In this document: one piece after another, positions 10,017 to 46,441 of the stretch
Position numbering within the stretch: the first letter of the stretch is position 1
Layout of the letters: each line of letters opens with the position of its first letter
DNA from: Candidatus Gastranaerophilales bacterium
GTDB lineage: Bacteria; Cyanobacteriota; Vampirovibrionia; Gastranaerophilales; Gastranaerophilaceae
Reading direction: 5' to 3'
Assembly: GCA_944325575.1 (NCBI GenBank)
Contig: CALVAR010000019.1
Location: forward strand, 1-46,441
Length of the DNA: 46,441 bases
The notes under the pieces: model-generated
The model's database searches: none
What the model saw: the letters and a program-made list of their open reading frames with translations, nothing else
What the model was told of the DNA's origin: nothing
Position numbers and translations under genes: made by a program

Positions 10017-11255
10017 CTAAACGGTTTTGCAGTATTTTGCCAAAAACAAGAAAAGATTCATTACTTCCGGTATTTTTTCTTTTGTATTTTCTGCAAGAAT
10101 CTCTGTAATGCCCTGATTTAGCCCAAGCTGACATGCCGGACAGGTTGTAAGTATGAAATCGACTTTGGCATCCAGATAGGACTGTGCTTTTTGTTTGGAA
10201 ATTTTTCTGGAGATTTCCTGATTTTGCAATGCAAATTTTCCCGAAAATCCACAGCACTTATCAAAGTCTTTTGCCTCAATGTATTCAATACCATTTATAT
10301 TTTTTACAATATCAATAAAATCATATGTGTCATGGCAGGGTTTATGAACTGCAACTTTATATTTTTTATTAGCTGTAAAATTAAAATCTTTGAGTAAATC
10401 CGAAACCATAATGGTTTTTTCTGCCAGTTTTTTTGCTGTTTCTTTATTGGTGAATAATTTATAGTTTTTTAATACGTCATTGCATGAAGCACAGTCTGTT
10501 AATACAAAATCAAAGTCGTCCTTCAGCATTTCGAGGTTTTTATTTAACAATTTATTAAATGCATCAATATTTCCGTCATTTAAATAACTAACACCGCAGC
10601 ATTCAAAATTCTTTTTGATTAACTCTATATTTGAGCCTGACAGAATAGTTTTTACTGCTTCTTCTGTTTCTTTGTTTATATATTTATTAAAACATCCTTC
10701 AAAATACACTGCTTTTTGCGTTTTATGTTTTGATTTTGCAAGTTTGTTTTTGTACCTGCCGTGTGCAAGTGAGTTTAACAGTAAAATCCGTTTCCCCAAT
10801 ATTCCTGTTTTGCATATAACCTTTTCAAAATATTTCAGAATTCTTGGTAATCCAATGAATCTGTATATAGAAAAAAATATTCTGCCAAATTGCAGTCCTA
10901 TTTTAAATAAAGTATAAGAATTTATAATTTTTTCCAAAACAGATATCTTATTTTTTTTGTAATATTCGGCTTTTGCTGCTATAAATATTTTTTTTACATC
11001 AATTTTGCTCGGACAAAATTCTTTGCACGCATTGCATCCTGTACATAGATCAAGATATTTCTTTACTGTTTTATTGAGATTCAGCTCTTTTTTTATTATT
11101 CCATTAAGAATATTAAATTTTCCTCTTGAAACAGCACATTCGTTTAGTGTAGCTTTGAATACCGGACAAACAGACTGGCACAGTCCGCAGCGTGAACATT
11201 TATATATATCTTCTTCATAATCTTTCAAGTTTTTCATATTATTAATTATATTCAC
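10017..11255 (-). CDS. GlcF/LutA-like iron-sulfur oxidoreductase subunit
   Basis: Resembles the Fe-S subunit of glycolate or lactate oxidases, which passes electrons from a flavoprotein partner to the membrane. The N-terminus has two ferredoxin-type [4Fe-4S] motifs: Cys20, 23, 26, 30 (CSRCGLCQSVCP) and Cys71, 74, 77, 81 (CTGCNACKEFCP). Two cysteine-rich CCG domains follow (FECCGVSY and DKCCGFSGKF), the hallmark of GlcF, LutA and HdrB proteins. The listed start is a GTG. An ATG six codons in, at 11237, is equally possible because neither has a good ribosome site. No GlcD-like flavoprotein gene is adjacent, so the partner must be elsewhere. The divergent dehydrogenase starts 54 bases away. Confidence 0.85.
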   Translation of the reverse strand: MNIINNMKNLKDYEEDIYKCSRCGLCQSVCPVFKATLNECAVSRGKFNILNGIIKKELNLNKTVKKYLDLCTGCNACKEFCPSKIDVKKIFIAAKAEYYKKNKISVLEKIINSYTLFKIGLQFGRIFFSIYRFIGLPRILKYFEKVICKTGILGKRILLLNSLAHGRYKNKLAKSKHKTQKAVYFEGCFNKYINKETEEAVKTILSGSNIELIKKNFECCGVSYLNDGNIDAFNKLLNKNLEMLKDDFDFVLTDCASCNDVLKNYKLFTNKETAKKLAEKTIMVSDLLKDFNFTANKKYKVAVHKPCHDTYDFIDIVKNINGIEYIEAKDFDKCCGFSGKFALQNQEISRKISKQKAQSYLDAKVDFILTTCPACQLGLNQGITEILAENTKEKIPEVMNLFLFLAKYCKTV

Positions 11256-37387: not shown

Positions 37388-38980
37388 CTATTTTAATAAC
37401 TTGAAAAAGTTTTTTTTTATTGATATAGTAGCTGTACACATAGTGGCGGGTATCGTCAAGTGGTTAAGACCTCGGATTGTGGTTCCGATATACATGGGTT
37501 CGAATCCCATTACCCGCCCCATATCTAACAAATCGTCAGTCAGATGTTCGCAGATGCAGAATATGACTGATTTTTTGTTGGTTCGAAACTCCCCTGAAAC
37601 ATACTGGACGCCATTCGGATAAATTATTTGTTGCAGGCGTTTTTTAAACTCGAATTCAGAATTGCACCATAGGTCTTTTAAGTTCGTCAGCAGAAAGCAG
37701 CAGGAGTCCAAATACTGCTTTATATTATGCTGTGGTATATCCAACCCTGCCAAGTCTGTTTTAATCGCCGTAACGGACGCGTTGATATCCTCTTTTAAAA
37801 ACTTATAGTCCTCTTCTTCAATCTTGTCGTCATTGTATTTGAGAATTAATTTCTTTTTATCTTCCAACAGTTTTTCCATATCCTTTTCAAGCTTTCTTTT
37901 TAGTTCTGTTTTCTCTTTTATACTCTTTTTATATACATCCTGTAGTATTGCCCTGAACAGCTTAAGTATTTCTACTTTTGGCTTGATTACTTCAAGGTGT
38001 TTTGCATAATCTTCTTCAAGTTTTTCTTTTCTTATTCTGTAGTGTATATTACAATCCGGTTGGTGACAGTGATAATATGCATATTTCTTACTCCTGCCTT
38101 TGCTATAGCTAGCTGTTAGCGGATGGTTGCAATTAGGACACCTAACATATCTTCGAAGCGGAAATTCTTCATTGTCAATTTTGTAGCTGGTAATAACAGG
38201 CTTTCTTCCTTCTAAAATTGCCTGTACACGATAAAAAGTTTCCTCATCCACTAGCGGTTCGAAAATTCCTCGAATGGGTTCATCAAAATATTTGTTTTCT
38301 ATCAAACCAATATAGGCTTTATGCCTTAACATCCTAAATATTTTATTTTTATCACATTTTTTCATGCCAAACTTTCTCAATTCTTCAATTAAATCCGCCT
38401 GTGAATATAGACCTGTAGAAAATAGTTCAAAGGCTTTTTTTACGTACTTAGCATTTTCTGGATGTGGTCTTAGAGACATTTCTCTGTCATTTATATACCC
38501 AAAAGGAGCAAGACTTAACCAGCGTCCTTTATCAAGTGCGCCTTTCAAGCCAAGTCTTGTTCTTTCTCCAATTTTTCTCCATTCGTATCTGCTTGTTCCC
38601 TGGTTTATCCATCTATAAAACTCAGCTTCAGGTGTATCATCATTGTTTTCCGTTGCAGATAAAGGTTTTATCTTATTTTTATTAAAAAACTGATTTAAAT
38701 GGTAATAATCACTTTGTTCTCCTCTTGAAAGTCTATCCCATTTCCAAAATACTAATGCGTCTATTTTATTTTTATTTTCTTCACAGTATACAAACATTTC
38801 TTTTAACTGTGTTCTATTAAGGTTACAGGCACTTTCGCCTTCTTCTATAAAAATTTTATCTATTTCATAGCCTGATTTTACAGTAAAATCTACACATTCT
38901 TTTCGTTGGCTGGGAATACTATAACCTTTTTTAAACTGTTCATCTGTAGAGACTCTGCAATATATAACGGCTCTAGGCAT
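37388..38980 (-). CDS. Large serine recombinase (integrase of the element)
   Basis: Site-specific recombinase. The resolvase-type catalytic domain (about 1-145) has nucleophile Ser11 (YCRVSTDEQ), SIPSQR and DRLSRG (Arg83, Arg86). A recombinase domain (about 155-260), a zinc ribbon (Cys281, 284, 305, 310) and a long Lys/Glu coiled coil (about 340-405) follow, as in PhiC31-type integrases. The 530-aa reading frame given here runs across the attachment core (codons 487-490). Residues after about 490 (MGFEPMYIGTTIRGLNHLTI) are just antisense tRNA-His and host DNA. In the circular form the frame would instead end after 22 other codons stored at 45352-45421, giving 512 aa. Its start overlaps the preceding small ORF (ATGCCTAG). 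Confidence 0.93.
   Translation of the reverse strand: MPRAVIYCRVSTDEQFKKGYSIPSQRKECVDFTVKSGYEIDKIFIEEGESACNLNRTQLKEMFVYCEENKNKIDALVFWKWDRLSRGEQSDYYHLNQFFNKNKIKPLSATENNDDTPEAEFYRWINQGTSRYEWRKIGERTRLGLKGALDKGRWLSLAPFGYINDREMSLRPHPENAKYVKKAFELFSTGLYSQADLIEELRKFGMKKCDKNKIFRMLRHKAYIGLIENKYFDEPIRGIFEPLVDEETFYRVQAILEGRKPVITSYKIDNEEFPLRRYVRCPNCNHPLTASYSKGRSKKYAYYHCHQPDCNIHYRIRKEKLEEDYAKHLEVIKPKVEILKLFRAILQDVYKKSIKEKTELKRKLEKDMEKLLEDKKKLILKYNDDKIEEEDYKFLKEDINASVTAIKTDLAGLDIPQHNIKQYLDSCCFLLTNLKDLWCNSEFEFKKRLQQIIYPNGVQYVSGEFRTNKKSVIFCICEHLTDDLLDMGRVMGFEPMYIGTTIRGLNHLTIPATMCTATISIKKNFFKLLK
37446..37521 (+). tRNA. tRNA-His (GTG anticodon)
   Basis: The cloverleaf folds cleanly. The acceptor GCGGGTA pairs with TACCCGC, the anticodon loop is ATTGTGG with GTG, and the T-loop is GGTTCGAATCC. 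CCA is encoded at 37519-37521. Base 37445 is the G(-1) opposite C73 that marks histidine tRNAs. Its 3' end is the attachment site of the element that follows. The gene stays intact after integration. Confidence 0.97.
37512..37522. repeat. attL core of the integrated element
   Basis: ACCCGCCCCAT, the last 10 bases of tRNA-His plus one T, repeated exactly at 45422-45432. This is the left junction between chromosome and element. Confidence 0.75.
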
Positions 38981-39224: not shown

Positions 39225-40133
39225 TCAATATTGATTTGAATTTTCTTCACTAAATGTTGTAATTTTCCCGTTTTGAACGGATATATGTAATTCTTTGAAT
39301 GCATTTTTCGGTAAATTTGACAGCAGCTTTTCAATTTGTCTTGGTGTAATATCTTTTGTAAATTGTTTTGGTTGTATTGTTACCTTGTTATTCGATTTTT
39401 TAATATTAATCTCTCGGACATTCGGGTTCCTAAGATTAAGTACAGTATCAACTTCTCCATTTTCTTCTGATATGCTCTTGTGAGTACGTGCAGTGGAATT
39501 CAAATCATACATTGTCTCTGTGTCAGACTTACGTCTTGCTGTCTGTACATATTGATAAAACGGAAGCAACAGCACGGGTTTATGATTATGCAGGTCTTGT
39601 TTTAAAATTTTGTCAACTATTTCGCTTTCAGTAAGAAATATACCGACTTTTTCCGGTCTTATATATAAATATGTTTTTACATTTGCATTACCCGTAATAA
39701 CAGCATATGTTTCGAGTAATCCATATTCTAATGCTTCAATATTCCCGCCTTTTGAGTCTTTTGTTGAAAATATTCGATTATCTGCAATTGTTGGCATTGT
39801 TGACTTAATAAACTCATTGTCTAAGCCGTATAATTTCAAATCTCTGATAATTTGAATTAAAATAGTATCCCTTATAGAGAATTTTCGCCATTTTTTGTTG
39901 TCATCTCTCGGTATTTTCAACAAATCTTTTTCTTCCCAGTAATTTATATTTCTGTAAGAAACATCAGGAATGATTTCATTTAAGCCTTTCAAAGAAAATA
40001 ATGGTTCTGTAAGTATTTTATATATTTCACCATAGCTTTTTTCTACAAGTTTTCTATAGAGTTGAAAATGATTATTTTGAATTGTTGACAAGCGGAGCAG
40101 GTTTAAATCATCTGTTGTATATGTCTCTTTCAT
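39225..40133 (-). CDS. MerR-like DNA-binding regulator
   Basis: 303 aa (302 if the second ATG is used). Residues about 55-112 resemble a MerR-type winged helix: DVSYRNINYWEEKDLL, then KKWRKFSIRDTILIQIIRDLKLYGLDNEFI, in the order helix-turn-helix, wing, helix. The middle and C-terminal parts are unfamiliar. GGAG precedes the double ATG at the start; the second (40133) has the better spacing. Just upstream are two identical-geometry inverted repeats that are probably its own operators, so it likely controls itself and perhaps the downstream recombinase genes. Effector unknown. Confidence 0.75.
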   Translation of the reverse strand: MKETYTTDDLNLLRLSTIQNNHFQLYRKLVEKSYGEIYKILTEPLFSLKGLNEIIPDVSYRNINYWEEKDLLKIPRDDNKKWRKFSIRDTILIQIIRDLKLYGLDNEFIKSTMPTIADNRIFSTKDSKGGNIEALEYGLLETYAVITGNANVKTYLYIRPEKVGIFLTESEIVDKILKQDLHNHKPVLLLPFYQYVQTARRKSDTETMYDLNSTARTHKSISEENGEVDTVLNLRNPNVREINIKKSNNKVTIQPKQFTKDITPRQIEKLLSNLPKNAFKELHISVQNGKITTFSEENSNQY

Positions 40134-40142
40134 CATTTCTCC

Positions 40143-40181: not shown

Positions 40182-40205
40182 AAATTATACGCACAAGTAT
40201 AATTT
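40182..40205. promoter_or_regulatory. Operator palindrome 2 (AAATTATAC-N6-GTATAATTT)
   Basis: Identical arms to the preceding site with the different spacer gcacaa. The centres are 39 bases apart. Conserved arms with a variable spacer are typical of regulator binding sites. Confidence 0.75.
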
Positions 40206-40254
40206 AAAAATGGTTTACAATCTTTAATATACAGCCTGAAATAGCAGGTATATG

Positions 40255-40569
40255 TTAATTCATTAATGCTTTTATTAGTTTATAAGCATCTTTTAGCTTT
40301 TCAGGGTTTTCGTGCAGCAGGTCATTGATTTCTTTTATAAGGTCATTGGGGTCACCGTGTTGAGAGAATTCAAAAACATTTGCAAAGTCTGTGTCCAGTT
40401 CTTTCATAATATTTTCTAAAGTTCCGAAAGATGGATAATTCCTGCCATTTTCAATATTGCTTAGTGAGGTTGGTTCAATCTTTGCAAGTTCTGCCAGTTT
40501 TTCTTGACTAAGACCTTTACGAAGTCTTAATTCTCTTAATCTTTTTCCTAACAGAATTTTATTATCCAT
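40255..40569 (-). CDS. XRE-family transcriptional regulator
   Basis: 104 aa from the ATG at 40569, chosen because GAGGAG lies 10 bases before it; a longer frame begins at 40599. Residues about 5-60 form a Cro/CI-type helix-turn-helix (LGKRLRELRLRKGLSQEKLA, then IEPTSLSNIENGRNYPSFGTL). A short C-terminal helical part (about 65-104) may dimerise. It is a typical small repressor of mobile or restriction-type elements. It lies divergent to the PD-(D/E)XK gene with 166 bases between, so it may control that gene. Confidence 0.88.
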   Translation of the reverse strand: MDNKILLGKRLRELRLRKGLSQEKLAELAKIEPTSLSNIENGRNYPSFGTLENIMKELDTDFANVFEFSQHGDPNDLIKEINDLLHENPEKLKDAYKLIKALMN

Positions 40570-40735
40570 ACCTGCACTGCTCCTCATCTGCATATACAAA
40601 TATGGTAATTGGTTATCGTGTTATTAAACATAAACTTCTACTGTATTTAAACGATTGAGTACAGTATGAGTTAATGTAAAATCATTTTAACTTTAAAATA
40701 TCTGAATAAAATCAGTATAAATATAAGGAATGTAT

Positions 40736-41770
40736 ATGAGTTTACTTTTATGTCACATAGCCAATAGTGTTGGTACTTCTACAGAAGACATTGCAACTAT
40801 GAGTCTGCATTATATACTGCAAAATTCGCAGATTGCAAAAGAAGCATTGTTGAGTTTCATTGGAACGGAGTTAGGCACTGAGTTTGAGCAAGAATTGCAT
40901 TTTGAAATTCAATCTGGCGGAGAAAACAAAGAACGACCTGATATGTCTTTAAGAAATACAAAAAATGATGAAATTTTATTATTTGAAATGAAATTTTGGG
41001 CAGGTTTAACCGATAAGCAGCCAAATACATATATTGATAGACTTAAAAAGAATAATGGTAAAGGTCTAATTTTTGTTTGTCCTAAATCAAGAGTTATATC
41101 ATTATCAGACGAAGTAGCAACACTTGCCGGTTACGAAAGACAGCAGGGTCGATTGCTTCAAAAAAATGCATTTCCTCCCATTCTTATAATGTCTTGGGAA
41201 GAACTAATTGATTTGCTTGAAACACGCTTGCTGTCAGAGCCTTTTTATAATGATTTGCTTCAATTAAAAGGTTTAACAGGTGAAATGAATAATCAAGACT
41301 TTAGACCTTTTTCTGCGTTCGATTTAAGTTCTAATATGGCAACAAGAATAATTGATTATTACAGAATTGTTGATAAAATTGCGGATAGCTTAATCATACA
41401 CAATTTCTGTAATTCAAAAGGTTTACAGGCTGCTCCGCAAAAAGACGGTTATTGCAGATATCTTAAAACAGAAAACTCTGAAACAGGCATAGGAATTTTA
41501 TATAGCTGTAACCTGTGGCAAAAAGGCTTAAACAGAAAAACATCGCCGTTTTGGATAACTCTTCAAATAATTGATTGTGATAATAATTGGTGCAACTATC
41601 CAAACGAATTGCGCTGTAAGCTTGAAACATTGGGACAAGAATTCATTGTTTACAGACATAGAAACAAGGAGATTCTTGCAGTTCCGCTTTATGCTTTACG
41701 AAATACAAATGAATATGAAACAGTGGAAAATCTCGTGAAGCAGGCTAAAAATATAATTGAATTGATTTAG
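40736..41770 (+). CDS. Putative PD-(D/E)XK-fold protein
   Basis: 344 aa. I chose the second ATG (40736) since AAGGA sits 6 bases before it, whereas the first ATG at 40730 abuts that site. Residues 67-103 show a candidate PD-(D/E)XK core: Pro68-Asp69 (ERPDM), Glu84-Met-Lys86 (FEMKF), with AGLTDKQPNTYIDRL following, much like Q-containing helices of that fold. The second half (about 200-344) is an unknown alpha/beta domain. It is the only plus-strand gene of the element and converges on the 124-aa gene with a 4-base overlap. A nuclease role in defence is plausible from context but not shown. Confidence 0.65.
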   Translation: MSLLLCHIANSVGTSTEDIATMSLHYILQNSQIAKEALLSFIGTELGTEFEQELHFEIQSGGENKERPDMSLRNTKNDEILLFEMKFWAGLTDKQPNTYIDRLKKNNGKGLIFVCPKSRVISLSDEVATLAGYERQQGRLLQKNAFPPILIMSWEELIDLLETRLLSEPFYNDLLQLKGLTGEMNNQDFRPFSAFDLSSNMATRIIDYYRIVDKIADSLIIHNFCNSKGLQAAPQKDGYCRYLKTENSETGIGILYSCNLWQKGLNRKTSPFWITLQIIDCDNNWCNYPNELRCKLETLGQEFIVYRHRNKEILAVPLYALRNTNEYETVENLVKQAKNIIELI

Positions 41771-42141
41771 TCGCTGTCAAGCCAATATGTCTTAACTTTA
41801 CATCGAGGGTCATTGATTATTGCTTTATTCAACACCCAAGTTGTTTCAATCGGGTCACCATACGACCAATATTGGTAATCTTCAACACAAAGCATTGTAT
41901 AAATACGCTTCGTAAACTGTGCACGTTCACCGTGTTCACGAATAAACATTACAGCATTTTCAAATGCCTGCCGTTGCGCTTTGCAGGTAACACAATCTCC
42001 TGAACATTTATTCTCGGCTTTCAGCTTTTCACAGGGGAAACTCAGCACATACTCGTGTGGAGCAAAGTGTTCGTATGTCTTTGCATTCTTCCAAACACAA
42101 CTCTTTATATAACCTCTAAAATCTTCAAGACAATAGCTCAT
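41767..42141 (-). CDS. Small Cys-containing protein of unknown function
   Basis: 124 aa. It contains a possible zinc site (Cys37, Cys46, Cys50, Cys53; CSGDCVTC). The wording resembles a widespread uncharacterised family with FAPHEY near 26-31 and YWSYGDPIETTWVLN near 91-105. I know that pattern only as 'hypothetical'. No ribosome site is obvious. It lies 82 bases after the Cap5 gene on the same strand, so it may belong to the CBASS transcript or be separate cargo. Confidence 0.6.
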   Translation of the reverse strand: MSYCLEDFRGYIKSCVWKNAKTYEHFAPHEYVLSFPCEKLKAENKCSGDCVTCKAQRQAFENAVMFIREHGERAQFTKRIYTMLCVEDYQYWSYGDPIETTWVLNKAIINDPRCKVKTYWLDSD

Positions 42142-42223
42142 TATTCATTTATACAGGACTTTTCGAAGGTTTTCAACCCTTTATACGTAAATTAGGATTA
42201 TAACTCTCTCGTTTTTACTCGTT

Positions 42224-43351
42224 TTATTCAATTTTAAATGCTTCAATAAAACCTCCACATTGATTGTTTCTATCAAATAATACGAAAGGTAAATCTGATT
42301 TTGGTATGCGAGACCTACCAATTTCAAGTGCAATTGATACGGGTACTGCCGGAAAAATATTTATTTCTTTACAGTTCGGATATTCGTTTTTTAGTTTATT
42401 AAGCAGATTTACCAACTTTGCATTAAATTCCATTAATATGTTTTTACTTGTAACAAAATTAGGATTTGGGTTATCAATAGTAAGTGTCCATATTGCAACA
42501 TCATTGCCAATAGAATCATAAATAGATTTTTCTTCAATATTGGCACTTAACGAAAAATTGATTGCTACATTAGATTTGCATTTAGCTTTTGGGGGTATGA
42601 TATTAAAATCTATAGAGTCATTCTTTTTGCTTTTATCCCAATACCAATTATCAGAATTGTGATGTTTTTGGTATATAGTTACATCCTTTTTTTCATTTAA
42701 TAATGTGCCTAGAAAAATCAGGAGCGGCTGCGGTGCTATCGCACAAATAGAAAAATTATTTGCCAGTGGACAAGTTTCAAGCACTTTATTCAGCCTGCGA
42801 CTTAAGTTCGTTTTCTCTGCATTCCAAAAAGCATCTTCATTGTCATAAATTTCACTATTTTGAAGCGATAAATCGAAAGGAGTAGCAGTTTTAGGGATAT
42901 TATTGTCTTCAACTATAGCATTCATAACCGCACTGTCATCAATTTGTATTTTATCATTATGAATATTTGCTGAATATTTTAAGGGTATTGTTCCTATTTT
43001 TTTCTTTGTATTAAGAAGGCTATCAACCCACTTTTCGTGTCTTTTTTTCATTTCAATTAGTCGTTCTGCTGGATGTTCCTGAACTTCATCTTTATCGATT
43101 CTCCTATGACATTCATCACATAATAACATTAAATTGCTGATATCCTTCTTCAATTTAGGAGATTTTTGGGGGTCCCAGCGAGGTCCGCCTTGCTTATCTG
43201 CATATATGTGTGCTACATAACCTCTATTTCGCAGTCGTTTGGTTATTGTGTCAATAGTTAAATTTTTATTGCAGTTTTCATATTCACAGCGTCCACCTGC
43301 TCTTCCCCATAAGACCATAAGCACTTTTTCTGTAATACTTGATTCAGACAT
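42224..43351 (-). CDS. cap5: CBASS effector: HNH-SAVED nuclease (Cap5)
   Basis: A cyclic-oligonucleotide-activated DNA endonuclease. The N-terminal HNH domain (about 15-110) has zinc cysteines 22, 27, 78, 81 and catalytic-type residues His48 (VAHIYA), Asn73 and His82 (CDECHRRID). The C-terminal SAVED sensor domain (about 165-375) carries the hallmark INIFPAVPVSIALEIGR (330-346). In characterised systems the SAVED domain binds a cyclic di- or trinucleotide and activates DNA cleavage, killing the infected cell. It is the last of three tightly packed genes: the start lies 3 bases after the E2 gene, with GGGAG upstream of the ATG. Confidence 0.93.
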   Translation of the reverse strand: MSESSITEKVLMVLWGRAGGRCEYENCNKNLTIDTITKRLRNRGYVAHIYADKQGGPRWDPQKSPKLKKDISNLMLLCDECHRRIDKDEVQEHPAERLIEMKKRHEKWVDSLLNTKKKIGTIPLKYSANIHNDKIQIDDSAVMNAIVEDNNIPKTATPFDLSLQNSEIYDNEDAFWNAEKTNLSRRLNKVLETCPLANNFSICAIAPQPLLIFLGTLLNEKKDVTIYQKHHNSDNWYWDKSKKNDSIDFNIIPPKAKCKSNVAINFSLSANIEEKSIYDSIGNDVAIWTLTIDNPNPNFVTSKNILMEFNAKLVNLLNKLKNEYPNCKEINIFPAVPVSIALEIGRSRIPKSDLPFVLFDRNNQCGGFIEAFKIE

Positions 43352-43354
43352 AAA

Positions 43355-44017
43355 TTATTCTTCTCCCATATTGTTAAATTCATCTATATATAAATTGTAA
43401 TCTTCCTCTTTTTGGCGAATTTTCTTCAAAAGTTTTTGATATTTACAGTTTTTTACTAATTTTTTGCAACCGCAATTGCATTTAATATAGCCTTTAGGAC
43501 GTGTTTTCATTGTAGAAAGGTCTTTGAACGCTTTTATTACCTTGTCATCTGTATCAAAGTACTGTGAATACTCTTCTTTATAATAATCAATGATACCTCT
43601 AACTCCGTGACTCATTTCTCCATAAGGCCATTTACCATATTTTTCTTTGTATGAATATTGTGATAAATAACCTATCAAAACTTTATTTATATAGTCTGTT
43701 AAAGAATAATTAGGATATAAGATTTCTCTGATTTTGGGTGGGGTACCAACACAGAGTGAACCAGATGGATTTATATGATTTTCCGGCTGGTTAGCAATTC
43801 TTCCACTAGTTTCAAAAGCTTTAGGCAATTGTTTAGGATAGTCTTTTGGAAAAGATATTTTTATAGCATATTCATCAATGAATTTTTCGCCCTTTACAAC
43901 TGTACAAAAGCCCAATAATCCTTGTATTACTAGTTCGTACTTTGAAACAGATAACTCTAACATTGTATGAATTTTAGATAGTTCTTTAAACTCATTTTCA
44001 ATTTTTTTTAAGGACAT
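43355..44017 (-). CDS. CBASS E2-like conjugating protein (type II-short)
   Basis: 220 aa. Residues about 10-150 match a ubiquitin-conjugating E2 fold: FPKDYPKQLPKAFET, then HINPSGSLCVGTPP, in which His81 and Cys89 correspond to the HPN-type and catalytic cysteine regions. Bacterial type II CBASS uses such proteins to attach the cyclase's C-terminus to other molecules, priming it. Here no E1 or JAB gene is present, which defines the short form. The C-terminus adds a KCNCGCKKLVKNC motif (Cys180, 182, 184, 191) resembling a SEC-C zinc knuckle. It starts 1 base after the cyclase stop (TAAAATG) and is translationally coupled. Confidence 0.88.
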   Translation of the reverse strand: MSLKKIENEFKELSKIHTMLELSVSKYELVIQGLLGFCTVVKGEKFIDEYAIKISFPKDYPKQLPKAFETSGRIANQPENHINPSGSLCVGTPPKIREILYPNYSLTDYINKVLIGYLSQYSYKEKYGKWPYGEMSHGVRGIIDYYKEEYSQYFDTDDKVIKAFKDLSTMKTRPKGYIKCNCGCKKLVKNCKYQKLLKKIRQKEEDYNLYIDEFNNMGEE

Positions 44018-44018
44018 T

Positions 44019-45218
44019 TTATTCCAACCAAGGTTTATTTATAGGATTAGTAGCATTTATTGTTGGTGTTGGTGCTGTAATTACTCTGTTGCCATTTGAA
44101 TTAAGTTTTAAACTATCAAAGAAAGAGCTAGAAATATCTGACCGGAGAGAATTTTCAACCAAGAACTTATAATTTTTTAATTCACCGGTTTCGATAGGCA
44201 ATAAAAGGTCTTTTTCAAGTTGATTTACCCATTCGAAGAATGCTCGTGCTTTGCCGTGATTATTTTCGTGCCAAGTTTCAGCATAATTTTCATCAACGAC
44301 AGGGCTTAATATTTCCCAAGTTTCACCATCAAAGGTTATCAAATCAGATTGTCTTTCATTGTATTTTTCAAATAGTTGTGCATACCTAGCCATACCTTTT
44401 ACTATTGTTTTCAGTGCTTCATATGTAGTCAGTTCTTGTTTATAAAGATGTGCTGAAAGAACTGTTATTATCATTGATATTGGCTTGCAATCTTCATTAT
44501 GTTTAGAACTGAAATATACATCTCTATGCCTTTTCAAAATCTGAATAGCCTTTTGAAGCGGTGTTTTTACACATCTGTCGGGGATTTCTTCAATAGAGTT
44601 ATATACACGACTTTGCGAATTTTCAAAGATATACCGTTTCTGTACATCTCTTAATTGCATAAATGCAACTTTTTGGCGTTCGTCAAACCACTTTTTAAAA
44701 GCCCTAGGGTCACTATAAGCCCAATTGTAATCACCAGTTTCTTTGTCTTTATTTGTTAAGGCTATTTTAGTACTAAAATTTGGCAACACCGGGACGCAAG
44801 GCAGGCAATCAATATGAAAACCTACAAGTTCTCCTTGTTTTGCCGGATAATTTAATGTCCAGCAACGTTTACCTTCTTCATCAAGAATTCTATTATAAGG
44901 TTCTTTTTGAAGTGCATTACCTAGTAAATGTTTTATTTGTTTTGGGGTACATTCCTCCTTTGATAATGAATGAAATTCACAGACCAAATCCACATCATAA
45001 TCTTTATCCTGTTGTTTTCTGTAGGGTCTAATAACTGTACCTAGCATAAATGAACCTTGTACATATACATCAATAGGTAATTGTAATGTAGATTCGAGAT
45101 ACTTTGCTAGGTCATTGTAATTTTGTTCTGCTTCATCATACAATTTTGCCGGAATATCTAATTTTTTGGCAATTTCTTCAAATAATTTTTCAGGTGCGGT
45201 AACAATTCCATTAGGCAT
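44019..45218 (-). CDS. CBASS CD-NTase cyclic-nucleotide synthase
   Basis: 399 aa. It makes a cyclic oligonucleotide alarm on phage infection. The nucleotidyltransferase signature is QGSFMLGTVI (Gly55-Ser56) followed by DYDVDLV (Asp75, Asp77), with the third acidic residue in HIDCLP (Asp137). Residues about 215-370 form the helical lobe of the CD-NTase/OAS fold. The last 25 residues are a loose Thr/Asn/Pro-rich tail ending NKPWLE; the final residue is Glu, not the Gly often seen on conjugated cyclases. It is the first gene of the CBASS operon, with GAGG 9 bases before the ATG. Clade and product cannot be told from sequence. Confidence 0.92.
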   Translation of the reverse strand: MPNGIVTAPEKLFEEIAKKLDIPAKLYDEAEQNYNDLAKYLESTLQLPIDVYVQGSFMLGTVIRPYRKQQDKDYDVDLVCEFHSLSKEECTPKQIKHLLGNALQKEPYNRILDEEGKRCWTLNYPAKQGELVGFHIDCLPCVPVLPNFSTKIALTNKDKETGDYNWAYSDPRAFKKWFDERQKVAFMQLRDVQKRYIFENSQSRVYNSIEEIPDRCVKTPLQKAIQILKRHRDVYFSSKHNEDCKPISMIITVLSAHLYKQELTTYEALKTIVKGMARYAQLFEKYNERQSDLITFDGETWEILSPVVDENYAETWHENNHGKARAFFEWVNQLEKDLLLPIETGELKNYKFLVENSLRSDISSSFFDSLKLNSNGNRVITAPTPTINATNPINKPWLE

Positions 45219-45700: not shown

Positions 45701-46441
45701 TTATACTTTGTATTGTAATATAGGCTCTTCTAACAGATTCTGTTTAATTCTTTCTACCATTTCTTTAGGCATATAAGTAGTTGCAGATACTTCGTCATAA
45801 GTATTAATTCGCTGTCCAGATTTACGCCCTTTAATAAGTTCTGCAATCTTAGCATTAAAGTCTTGACCATTTGAAGATATAAAACGCTTACCTCTTAAAT
45901 AATGAGCTACGTGTGAGCTATAAGAAGCCTCTGAAAGAATATTAGGCTCAATACCGTGCTTAATACAATGTTCAACAGCTATCTTATCAGCTAATGAACC
46001 TATTCCAGAATATCTCTGTTCATTGAAATTTCTTAACATGTGGACAAGTAATCGATTTCCTTCTATTCCATATTCTGGGTAATCTTTCAGTAATCCTCCT
46101 GCACGACACCCACCTAATCCATCTGTCAAATGAAATTTCTCTAGAAACATAACGTCACCAACACATTCTTTACCATCAAAGAAACTGTAAGTTACCATTT
46201 CAGAATTATCTCTATGAGGTATTATATTAACCTTTATTGGTTCTTTAGTGATGTTACCAGCACTGTCTTTAACCTTTTTATATATAGTACCAGTATTATT
46301 ACCTGTTGGTGTAGATACTACGTCATCACTAGCTTTAACTAATTCACTCAAAAAAGACTTAGTTGATTTAAATGTGCTAGGTGTTAGATTCTCAACTGCT
46401 GATTGGTATGTGAAAACATCTCCACCCATATTAGCTTTCTT
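45701..46441 (-). CDS. Hypothetical protein, GNAT-like region, start outside window
   Basis: 242 aa are visible from a Met at 46429, but the frame stays open to the last base (upstream codons Lys-Lys-Ala-Asn), so the real start may be outside the window. The region about 70-190 recalls a GNAT acetyltransferase layout: FFDGKECVGDVMF, then GIGSLADKIAVEHCIKHG and SEASYSSHVAHYLRGKRF near the place of the acetyl-CoA-binding end. A Gly-rich GLGGCRAGG lies between. This is a weak match. It lies outside the CBASS element on the minus strand. Confidence 0.55.
   Translation of the reverse strand, partial: KKANMGGDVFTYQSAVENLTPSTFKSTKSFLSELVKASDDVVSTPTGNNTGTIYKKVKDSAGNITKEPIKVNIIPHRDNSEMVTYSFFDGKECVGDVMFLEKFHLTDGLGGCRAGGLLKDYPEYGIEGNRLLVHMLRNFNEQRYSGIGSLADKIAVEHCIKHGIEPNILSEASYSSHVAHYLRGKRFISSNGQDFNAKIAELIKGRKSGQRINTYDEVSATTYMPKEMVERIKQNLLEEPILQYKV

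Follow-up and report, generated by a model that had tools for sequence, protein, structure and literature searches.

A nuclease-like gene and a small partner with viral kin as candidate anti-phage cargo of a serine-recombinase island in a Gastranaerophilales bacterium

The described systems closest to the locus analysed here are enzymes of the PD-(D/E)XK superfamily, two-component Type IV restriction systems such as GmrS/GmrD and McrBC, and phage operons encoding a ParB-like (IbrB-like) and a PAPS-reductase-like (IbrA-like, DUF3440) protein. Within the PD-(D/E)XK superfamily the nearest Pfam families are PDDEXK_4 and REase-ARP, and the nearest solved folds are EcoT38I, AF1548, Can2 and PaqCI. 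On the phage side, the parts of the literature used here report ParB-fold fusions to methyltransferase domains that are enriched in prophage regions (PMC12704722) and contigs in which a phage cytosine carboxymethyltransferase is accompanied by ParB-domain genes (PMC12783734), and consider how DndB relates to the ParB superfamily (PMC10853773, PMC12839542). The same parts of these four papers, and that of PMC7761591, name neither the gene pair nor the small domain described below, and a word-based search of the open-licence literature returned no description of the pair, which is weak evidence of absence.

The gene pair and its island

The window, i.e. the whole stretch of 46,441 nucleotides that was analysed, is one entire contig (G000:C19) of a 2.0 Mb genome in 38 contigs. 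An earlier note on this DNA had described two convergent genes between an XRE regulator and CBASS, one for a protein with a PD/ExK core and one for a Cys-rich protein with a possible zinc site, and had proposed that they may be an undescribed defence module. The region comprises the following features.

37388-38980, minus strand: large serine recombinase, its 3' end overlapping tRNA-His (ORF and tRNA calls, Pfam)
37446-37521, plus strand: tRNA-His, probable attachment locus judging from the recombinase overlap
39225-40136, minus strand: MerR-like island protein, 303 aa (Pfam scan, profile search)
40255-40599, minus strand: XRE-family regulator, 60-62% identical in siblings (HTH_31, 2e-13)
40600-40735, no strand: divergent intergenic region between the XRE and nuclease genes, similar in 6 islands
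40736-41770, plus strand: PD-(D/E)XK nuclease-like gene, 344 aa (ORF list, homologues, fold comparison)
41767-41770, no strand: convergent stop-codon overlap of 4 bp, the same in 5/5 family relatives
41767-42141, minus strand (start 42141, end 41767): small partner gene, 124 aa, with the domain W..AKT...PHEY...FIR..GE...YW..G.P...T..N[RK]A
42224-45218, minus strand: CBASS operon (cyclase, E2, HNH-SAVED), separate cargo (Pfam, PADLOC)

The XRE, MerR-like and recombinase genes all lie to the left of the pair on the minus strand, and CBASS lies to its right. This placement, given in the earlier note, was borne out by the HTH_31 match on one side and on the other by SAVED (2.2e-42) together with PADLOC matches to a CBASS endonuclease effector (3.6e-122), E2 (7.4e-47) and cyclase (1.9e-95), and the convergent ORFs with overlapping stops were likewise recovered. 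Both ATG 40730 and ATG 40736 are possible starts of the nuclease ORF; the five family relatives begin at the equivalent of 40736 (MSLLLCHIA), which gives 344 aa. For the XRE regulator an inner ATG is the likely start, as in its relatives. Among the five relatives, the near-identical L013/L014 comparison being excluded, dN/dS values were 0.039-0.061 (nuclease gene) and 0.094-0.119 (small gene), indicating that both coding sequences are under strong purifying selection; chance ORFs were excluded by these ratios. Within the intergenic region the nuclease gene is preceded by AAGGA, which is Shine-Dalgarno-like. A consensus promoter scan of positions 40200-42400 returned 13 sites, compared with 9.2 on average (sd 3.0) in shuffles, and no terminator, and thus lends the intergenic region no support. 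Pfam, NCBIfam and PADLOC, up to E 1, gave no match for a 242-aa minus-strand ORF (45701-46429) past CBASS; the contig stops there, short of any visible far boundary of the island.

The island of the window stands at tRNA-His and four siblings stand at tRNA-Glu, while the L012 sequence stops at the recombinase. Among five islands (L012 left out) tested for exact att-like repeats, these occurred in one, namely L013, where a 21-bp direct repeat of a segment of tRNA-Glu (10382-10457) is located at the far end (188-208); the two copies are likely an attachment-site pair about 10 kb apart.

A profile of the MerR-like protein hit 24 of 182 genomes at E 0.001, and ten of the places found scored more than 100 bits. 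In seven of ten sibling islands the pair is present and adjoins the XRE and MerR-like genes, one of these (G165) being cut off inside the nuclease. The remaining three are G107, where PDZ-like (by eye) and HNH-like genes stand in place of the pair, G127, which holds a large STAND-like protein (named by eye), and a second recombinase/MerR-like/XRE island of the window's own genome (G000:C15; L088 7966-14531), which holds a KAP-type NTPase (PADLOC PDC-S20, 3.5e-72) followed by a 110-aa nucleotidyltransferase-like ORF (by eye). These three islands indicate that the pair is cargo, and a core function in the island was rejected on the same ground. Its place beside the XRE and MerR-like genes would also suit a role in the integration, excision or stability of the island instead of defence, but apart from the three islands that lack it, Rhizobium plasmid stretches and a prophage-like contig (see below) carry the pair without this recombinase block, and we give such an upkeep role little probability.

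Some siblings carry candidate defence genes in place of CBASS, and PADLOC candidate models matched three of the five sibling-island cargo proteins scanned; the STAND-like and HNH-like proteins, the other two, were without a PADLOC match. The cargo of L009 (11467-15169) includes two proteins that match candidate models, an AlbA_2/Schlafen-type one (PDC-S50, 4e-39) and a DUF4209 one (PDC-S39, 1.7e-19), as well as a 232-aa HNH-like protein, and similar ORFs occur in L012 and L013. A PDZ-like, apparently secreted protein of 434-522 aa (by eye) occupies the variable edge of three islands (L013 4192-5496, L014 7439-9007, L087 1290-2828).

In the window, L012, L009 and L015 the small gene lies about 60-80 bp downstream of CBASS or AlbA_2 genes that share its strand, which counts against a two-gene module as the small gene could belong to that adjoining cargo and abut the nuclease gene by chance. 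However, an opposite-strand gene intervenes in L013 and L014, the pairs in Rhizobium and on the prophage-like contig have no CBASS or AlbA_2 neighbour, and similarity between islands (by eye) extends across the stretch between the XRE and nuclease genes and declines immediately upstream of the small gene, so that we regard a chance abutment as highly improbable. A CBASS accessory in particular was rejected, since visual inspection of five sibling islands (stretches of 10-21 kb), two pRL1 records and the prophage-like contig showed no CBASS gene next to the pair.

The nuclease-like protein and its small partner

Three parts of the two proteins were delimited.

40895-41080, plus strand: predicted PD-(D/E)XK core, residues 54-115 (invariant residues, model secondary structure, weak Pfam PDDEXK_4)
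41360-41767, plus strand: second domain, residues 209-344 (low-confidence model, middling structural matches)
41983-42033, minus strand: clade-specific insertion with C37, C46, C50 and C53, a possible metal site (alignments)

The core motif is formed by R67-P68-D69 (40934-40942) and E84-x-K86 (40985-40993), followed by Q95 and Y99. RPD, ExK, Q95 and Y99, and with them the D69, E84 and K86 of the PD/ExK core proposed earlier, are invariant in all eight aligned proteins (window included), and remain so when the copy of the prophage-like contig (L027) is added. The window nuclease stays below the curated cut-offs of both nearest Pfam families, reaching E 0.012 and 15.7 bits with REase-ARP (PF22558; cut-off 27) and E 0.063 and 13.7 bits with PDDEXK_4 (PF14281; cut-off 22.3); with the latter the Rhizobium homologue scores 3.7e-4 and 20.9 bits, just under the cut-off, and the L009 protein 15.4 bits. 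A PDB sequence search with the nuclease returned nothing, neither protein of the pair matched a PADLOC family at E up to 1, and PHROGs gave nothing under E 0.09 for the nuclease, the small protein or the homologues tried.

An AF2 model of the nuclease, built on two close sequences only (pLDDT 60.6), contains a helix (32-46), three strands (54-59, 69-74, 81-87), a further helix (95-105) and a strand (110-115), an order that we take to be the one expected of the PD-(D/E)XK superfamily (alpha-beta-beta-beta-alpha-beta core). Foldseek with this model gave nothing at E <0.001; its top row was PilW (E 0.0099), which is no nuclease, and a YaeQ protein followed at 0.15. Realignment of the Foldseek list with VIA-align, where a Z below 8 can be coincidental, ranked EcoT38I at the top (Z 6.6, 3.6 A, 122 aligned), with AF1548 (Z 5.4), Can2 (5.0), PaqCI (4.8), YaeQ (4.7) and AspBHI (4.5) among the other matches to the N-half. 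Fourteen of the best 50 VIA-align rows fall on the N-half (Z 4.4-6.6), and 13 of them we take to be of the PD-(D/E)XK type (EcoT38I, AF1548, Can2 and like, PaqCI, YaeQ, AspBHI), the remaining row being a plant RNA polymerase IV chain. The low-confidence model is thus consistent with the fold that the earlier note had suspected, and the assignment of the large protein as a PD-(D/E)XK nuclease, which would presumably cleave DNA, is supported at the sequence level. The C-half (209-344) matched the C-terminal domain of T4 MotA (Z 6.3) and, lower down, type III secretion chaperones; given the low confidence of the model in this part, DNA binding by the C-half is only a lead.

The small protein does contain many Cys residues, eight within 124 aa, and C37, C46, C50, C53, C85 and C114 are kept in all five family relatives. 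Its reading as a simple zinc protein had to be given up, because the Cys cluster is an insertion confined to one clade of a mostly viral domain: the stretch from C37 to C53 is absent from the Rhizobium, Butyrivibrio and viral rows. An AF2 model built from 27 sequences (window, L009 and 25 of 30 viral loci) reached a pLDDT of 85.2 and a pTM of 0.80. Across this alignment W17, A20, K21, P28, H29, Y31, F60 and W92 are invariant, and the pattern W, AK[TS], PH.Y, F, IR..G, YW..G, T...N places the protein, by its sequence, among the kin of a mostly viral domain family, which we label AKT-PHxY-YWTMG as no named family was found. The window protein retains the family residues K21, T22, H29, Y31, R68, Y91, T101 and N105 and therefore looks competent rather than like a dead decoy; it reads WSYG where most rows read WTMG.

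Pfam and PHROG scans of the domain members tried yielded nothing under E 0.09, an NCBIfam scan of the small protein gave one sub-cut-off row at 0.038, and three INPHARED queries with the domain gave no match. A PDB sequence search returned six weak rows, ribosomal L19 or MHC (E 0.074-1.1). Neither Foldseek (best E 0.099) nor VIA-align (best Z 3.9) found a fold match in the PDB, which is no proof of a new fold, and the sole fold lead is an unnamed viral model, A0A516LRX9 (Foldseek E 8.7e-7).

Recurrence of the pair and viral relatives of the partner

Among 191 family genomes the nuclease matched in seven and the small protein in six. Both genes occur together in six, i.e. the genome of the window and five others, each of another genus, with identities of 67% for the nuclease and 71-76% for the small protein; the seventh nuclease genome, G165 (L016), holds only the first 63 residues at a contig end, and apart from this truncated copy the 191 genomes contain no single-gene carrier. 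Five siblings share the layout recombinase, MerR-like, XRE, nuclease, small gene, and L013 and L014, which come from different genera, have almost identical copies of the pair, which points to recent transfer. No further pair was found in 386 phylum genomes, where the counts were 5/386 for the single nuclease, 5/386 for the small-protein profile and 6/386 for the nuclease profile; the sixth match of the latter, in G142, is weak and partial (E 8.2e-5, profile positions 38-103, 362-aa open frame). A scan of genome_contigs recovered one locus, the RUG12906 sibling.

A search of 72,556 plasmid records located the nuclease in eight from Rhizobium leguminosarum (E 5e-9 or better, identity about 21%); these eight also carry the small protein, as does a ninth, Butyrivibrio proteoclasticus pCY186. 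By match coordinates the two genes adjoin in 8/8 of the records with the nuclease, which represent one Rhizobium lineage. In the annotation of two pRL1 records the pair is arranged head-to-head with about 40-65 bp between the starts; aligned identity to the window is 24% for the nuclease and 34% for the small protein. The small gene of pCY186 lacks this nuclease, its neighbours being annotated as AAA ATPase, McrC and WYL. A head-to-head pair, its nuclease 82% identical to the Rhizobium one, was also detected on the IMG/VR contig L027, which appears prophage-like from its tail and lysis genes (by eye); viral_contigs held no nuclease apart from this one, and INPHARED gave no nuclease match. Beside this pair (L027 1-3943) are a DndB-like DGQHR protein, a 433-aa protein and, about 3.5 kb away, a D12 adenine methyltransferase, possibly a module of their own; four Zymomonas plasmid records and one from Rhizobium contain relatives of the DGQHR protein.

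The pair thus exists in two gene orders, convergent and head-to-head, and in three settings, mobile islands, a megaplasmid and a prophage-like contig, none of them a housekeeping context. The two orders make hitch-hiking unlikely; the sequence data support linkage of the two genes, which very probably form one functional unit. Recurrence near defence genes, for which the earlier note had asked, was seen in part: candidate defence genes mark the sibling cargo as described above, but the Rhizobium pair is surrounded by Ku, LigD, Hsp20 and NUDIX. Accordingly, the proposal of an undescribed defence module gains from the recurrence of the pair as a unit and from the candidate defence genes of some sibling islands, and loses from a Rhizobium neighbourhood that is no recognised defence island.

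A profile scan of viral contigs for the small domain gave 30 loci (L025-L054), which include near-copies (about 25 are distinct by eye). A ParB-like gene is located within 5 kb of the domain in 29/30 and a PAPS-reductase-like gene in 28/30, some of these being self-matches as the three PAPS-reductase and seven ParB queries came from the same 30 loci. For one such PAPS-reductase query the INPHARED rate was 215 of 50,697 phage records at E 1e-10, in another collection and with another E-value limit. The sole locus without both neighbours is the nuclease carrier L027, and the other 29 have no nuclease match; in L025 ParB is present and the contig stretch is short. Methylase-like genes are neighbours in 14 loci and glycosyltransferase-like genes (by eye) in 5, Pfam finding nothing in a glycosyltransferase-like neighbour. 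Example operons with the small domain, ParB-like, methylase-like and PAPS-reductase genes are L049 7313-10557 and L032 59-3220. For L049, Pfam reported ParB_N, PAPS_reduct with a DUF3440 stretch under the cut-off and a weak N6_N4_Mtase, and in PADLOC the PAPS reductase resembles DndC (1.3e-8) and the ParB-like protein matches a methyltransferase-fusion model (7.4e-31). By eye, 9/30 loci have the small domain fused to a class I SAM methyltransferase, and a Pfam check in L032 located the methyltransferase behind the small domain. These phage operons may putatively modify DNA. On the contig shared by L017 and L028, the ORF of the terminase large subunit (L028 4724-7387) contains a seeming intein whose first residue is Ala, not Cys (by eye).

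Trees of the small domain were calculated with 32 rows and with 26, the second without Butyrivibrio and the long-branched L038, L044, L046, L047 and L054; the near-copies L033, L037, L040, L043 and L050, which were also omitted from the folding alignment, and L014, whose protein is identical, were left out of both. In the best tree the nuclease-paired rows fall into two groups, and a single clade was not rejected (p-AU 0.263).

The viral methyltransferase fusions, together with the D12 adenine methyltransferase and DndB-like gene near the prophage-like pair, would fit a restriction-modification-like arrangement in which the small protein helps to mark host DNA, the nuclease cuts unmarked DNA and the XRE protein acts like a C protein; the XRE regulator indeed matches PADLOC Control_protein (2.6e-11), after HTH_VI (1.6e-14). 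However, neither a methyltransferase nor a PAPS reductase is present among the nine window proteins scanned or annotated within 12 kb on the two pRL1 records, and we judge this arrangement to be distinctly unlikely.

The free-standing viral copies of the partner, its obligate pairing with the nuclease in the complete copies found and the XRE regulator adjoining the nuclease gene may alternatively point to toxin and immunity, the small protein keeping the nuclease inactive in an addiction or abortive-infection module and the phage homologues being antidotes or triggers. Toxin-antitoxin pairs are rarely convergent or divergent, yet the two genes are so in every copy read, and an antidote would have no need of the specific ParB/PAPS-reductase surroundings in which the viral copies occur. 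We therefore regard this reading as improbable.

Proposed function and comparison with known systems

The explanation that we favour, at slightly less than an even chance, is a two-gene, XRE-regulated nuclease module that is anti-phage cargo of the serine-recombinase island and whose partner acts with the nuclease; it commits to this joint action and not to an exact ligand. The XRE protein would repress the module, the PD-(D/E)XK nuclease would cut invader DNA and the small protein would be its specificity or activation subunit. On meeting phage nucleic acid, a modified base or a product of a modification pathway, this subunit might license cleavage, and the outcome would be a Type IV-like two-component restriction. 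That the unit is directed at phages or other mobile elements is probable; that its partner confers specificity tied to a phage modification-type pathway is possible, if rather doubtful. The partner may derive from the phage ParB/PAPS-reductase (IbrB/IbrA-type) modification-like gene family, and it is unlikely, though conceivable, that a captured part of these operons aims the nuclease at phages using that very modification. Besides the position of the small gene behind CBASS or AlbA_2 genes and the weak Pfam, PADLOC and fold results, other observations count against the favoured module: nuclease and small gene are not in one operon, the small domain occurs without this nuclease in 29/30 viral loci and in Butyrivibrio, and the window protein departs from the WTMG of the family.

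If correct, the favoured explanation would add a new two-gene anti-phage module and offer an initial way into the function of an unnamed, mostly viral domain that travels with ParB-like and PAPS-reductase-like genes. A captured phage gene family would mean that the host uses the phage's own camouflage against it. The favoured explanation would also make the role of the phage ParB/PAPS-reductase operons testable, since sensitivity to the pair is predicted to depend on whether a phage has the operon.

Compared with known systems, the pair differs from Type II toxin-antitoxin systems as it is not bicistronic: its genes converge in the window and five siblings, and diverge in two pRL1 records and on the prophage-like contig. 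From Type II restriction-modification it differs by the missing cognate methyltransferase, in the window proteins and pRL1 stretches given above; the prophage-like contig does carry one near the pair. It shares its island and likely purpose with CBASS, but recurs without it in the other loci inspected. With the PD-(D/E)XK superfamily the large protein shares the core motif and, in the low-confidence model, the predicted order of core elements and the alignment of its N-half to such enzymes; it differs in its sub-cut-off Pfam scores, an unassigned C-terminal domain and a small partner in every complete copy found. The partner's domain is a regular neighbour in the phage ParB/PAPS-reductase operons, whereas the window proteins scanned show no ParB or PAPS-reductase match, and the window protein instead has a four-Cys insertion and a nuclease as neighbour. 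Type IV systems differ in that Pfam finds neither an NTPase motor nor a known modified-base reader domain in either protein of the pair. By analogy, however, the likeness to Type IV two-component restriction extends to a mobile nuclease and partner tied by context to DNA modification, next to which no methyltransferase was recognised either in the window or on pRL1.
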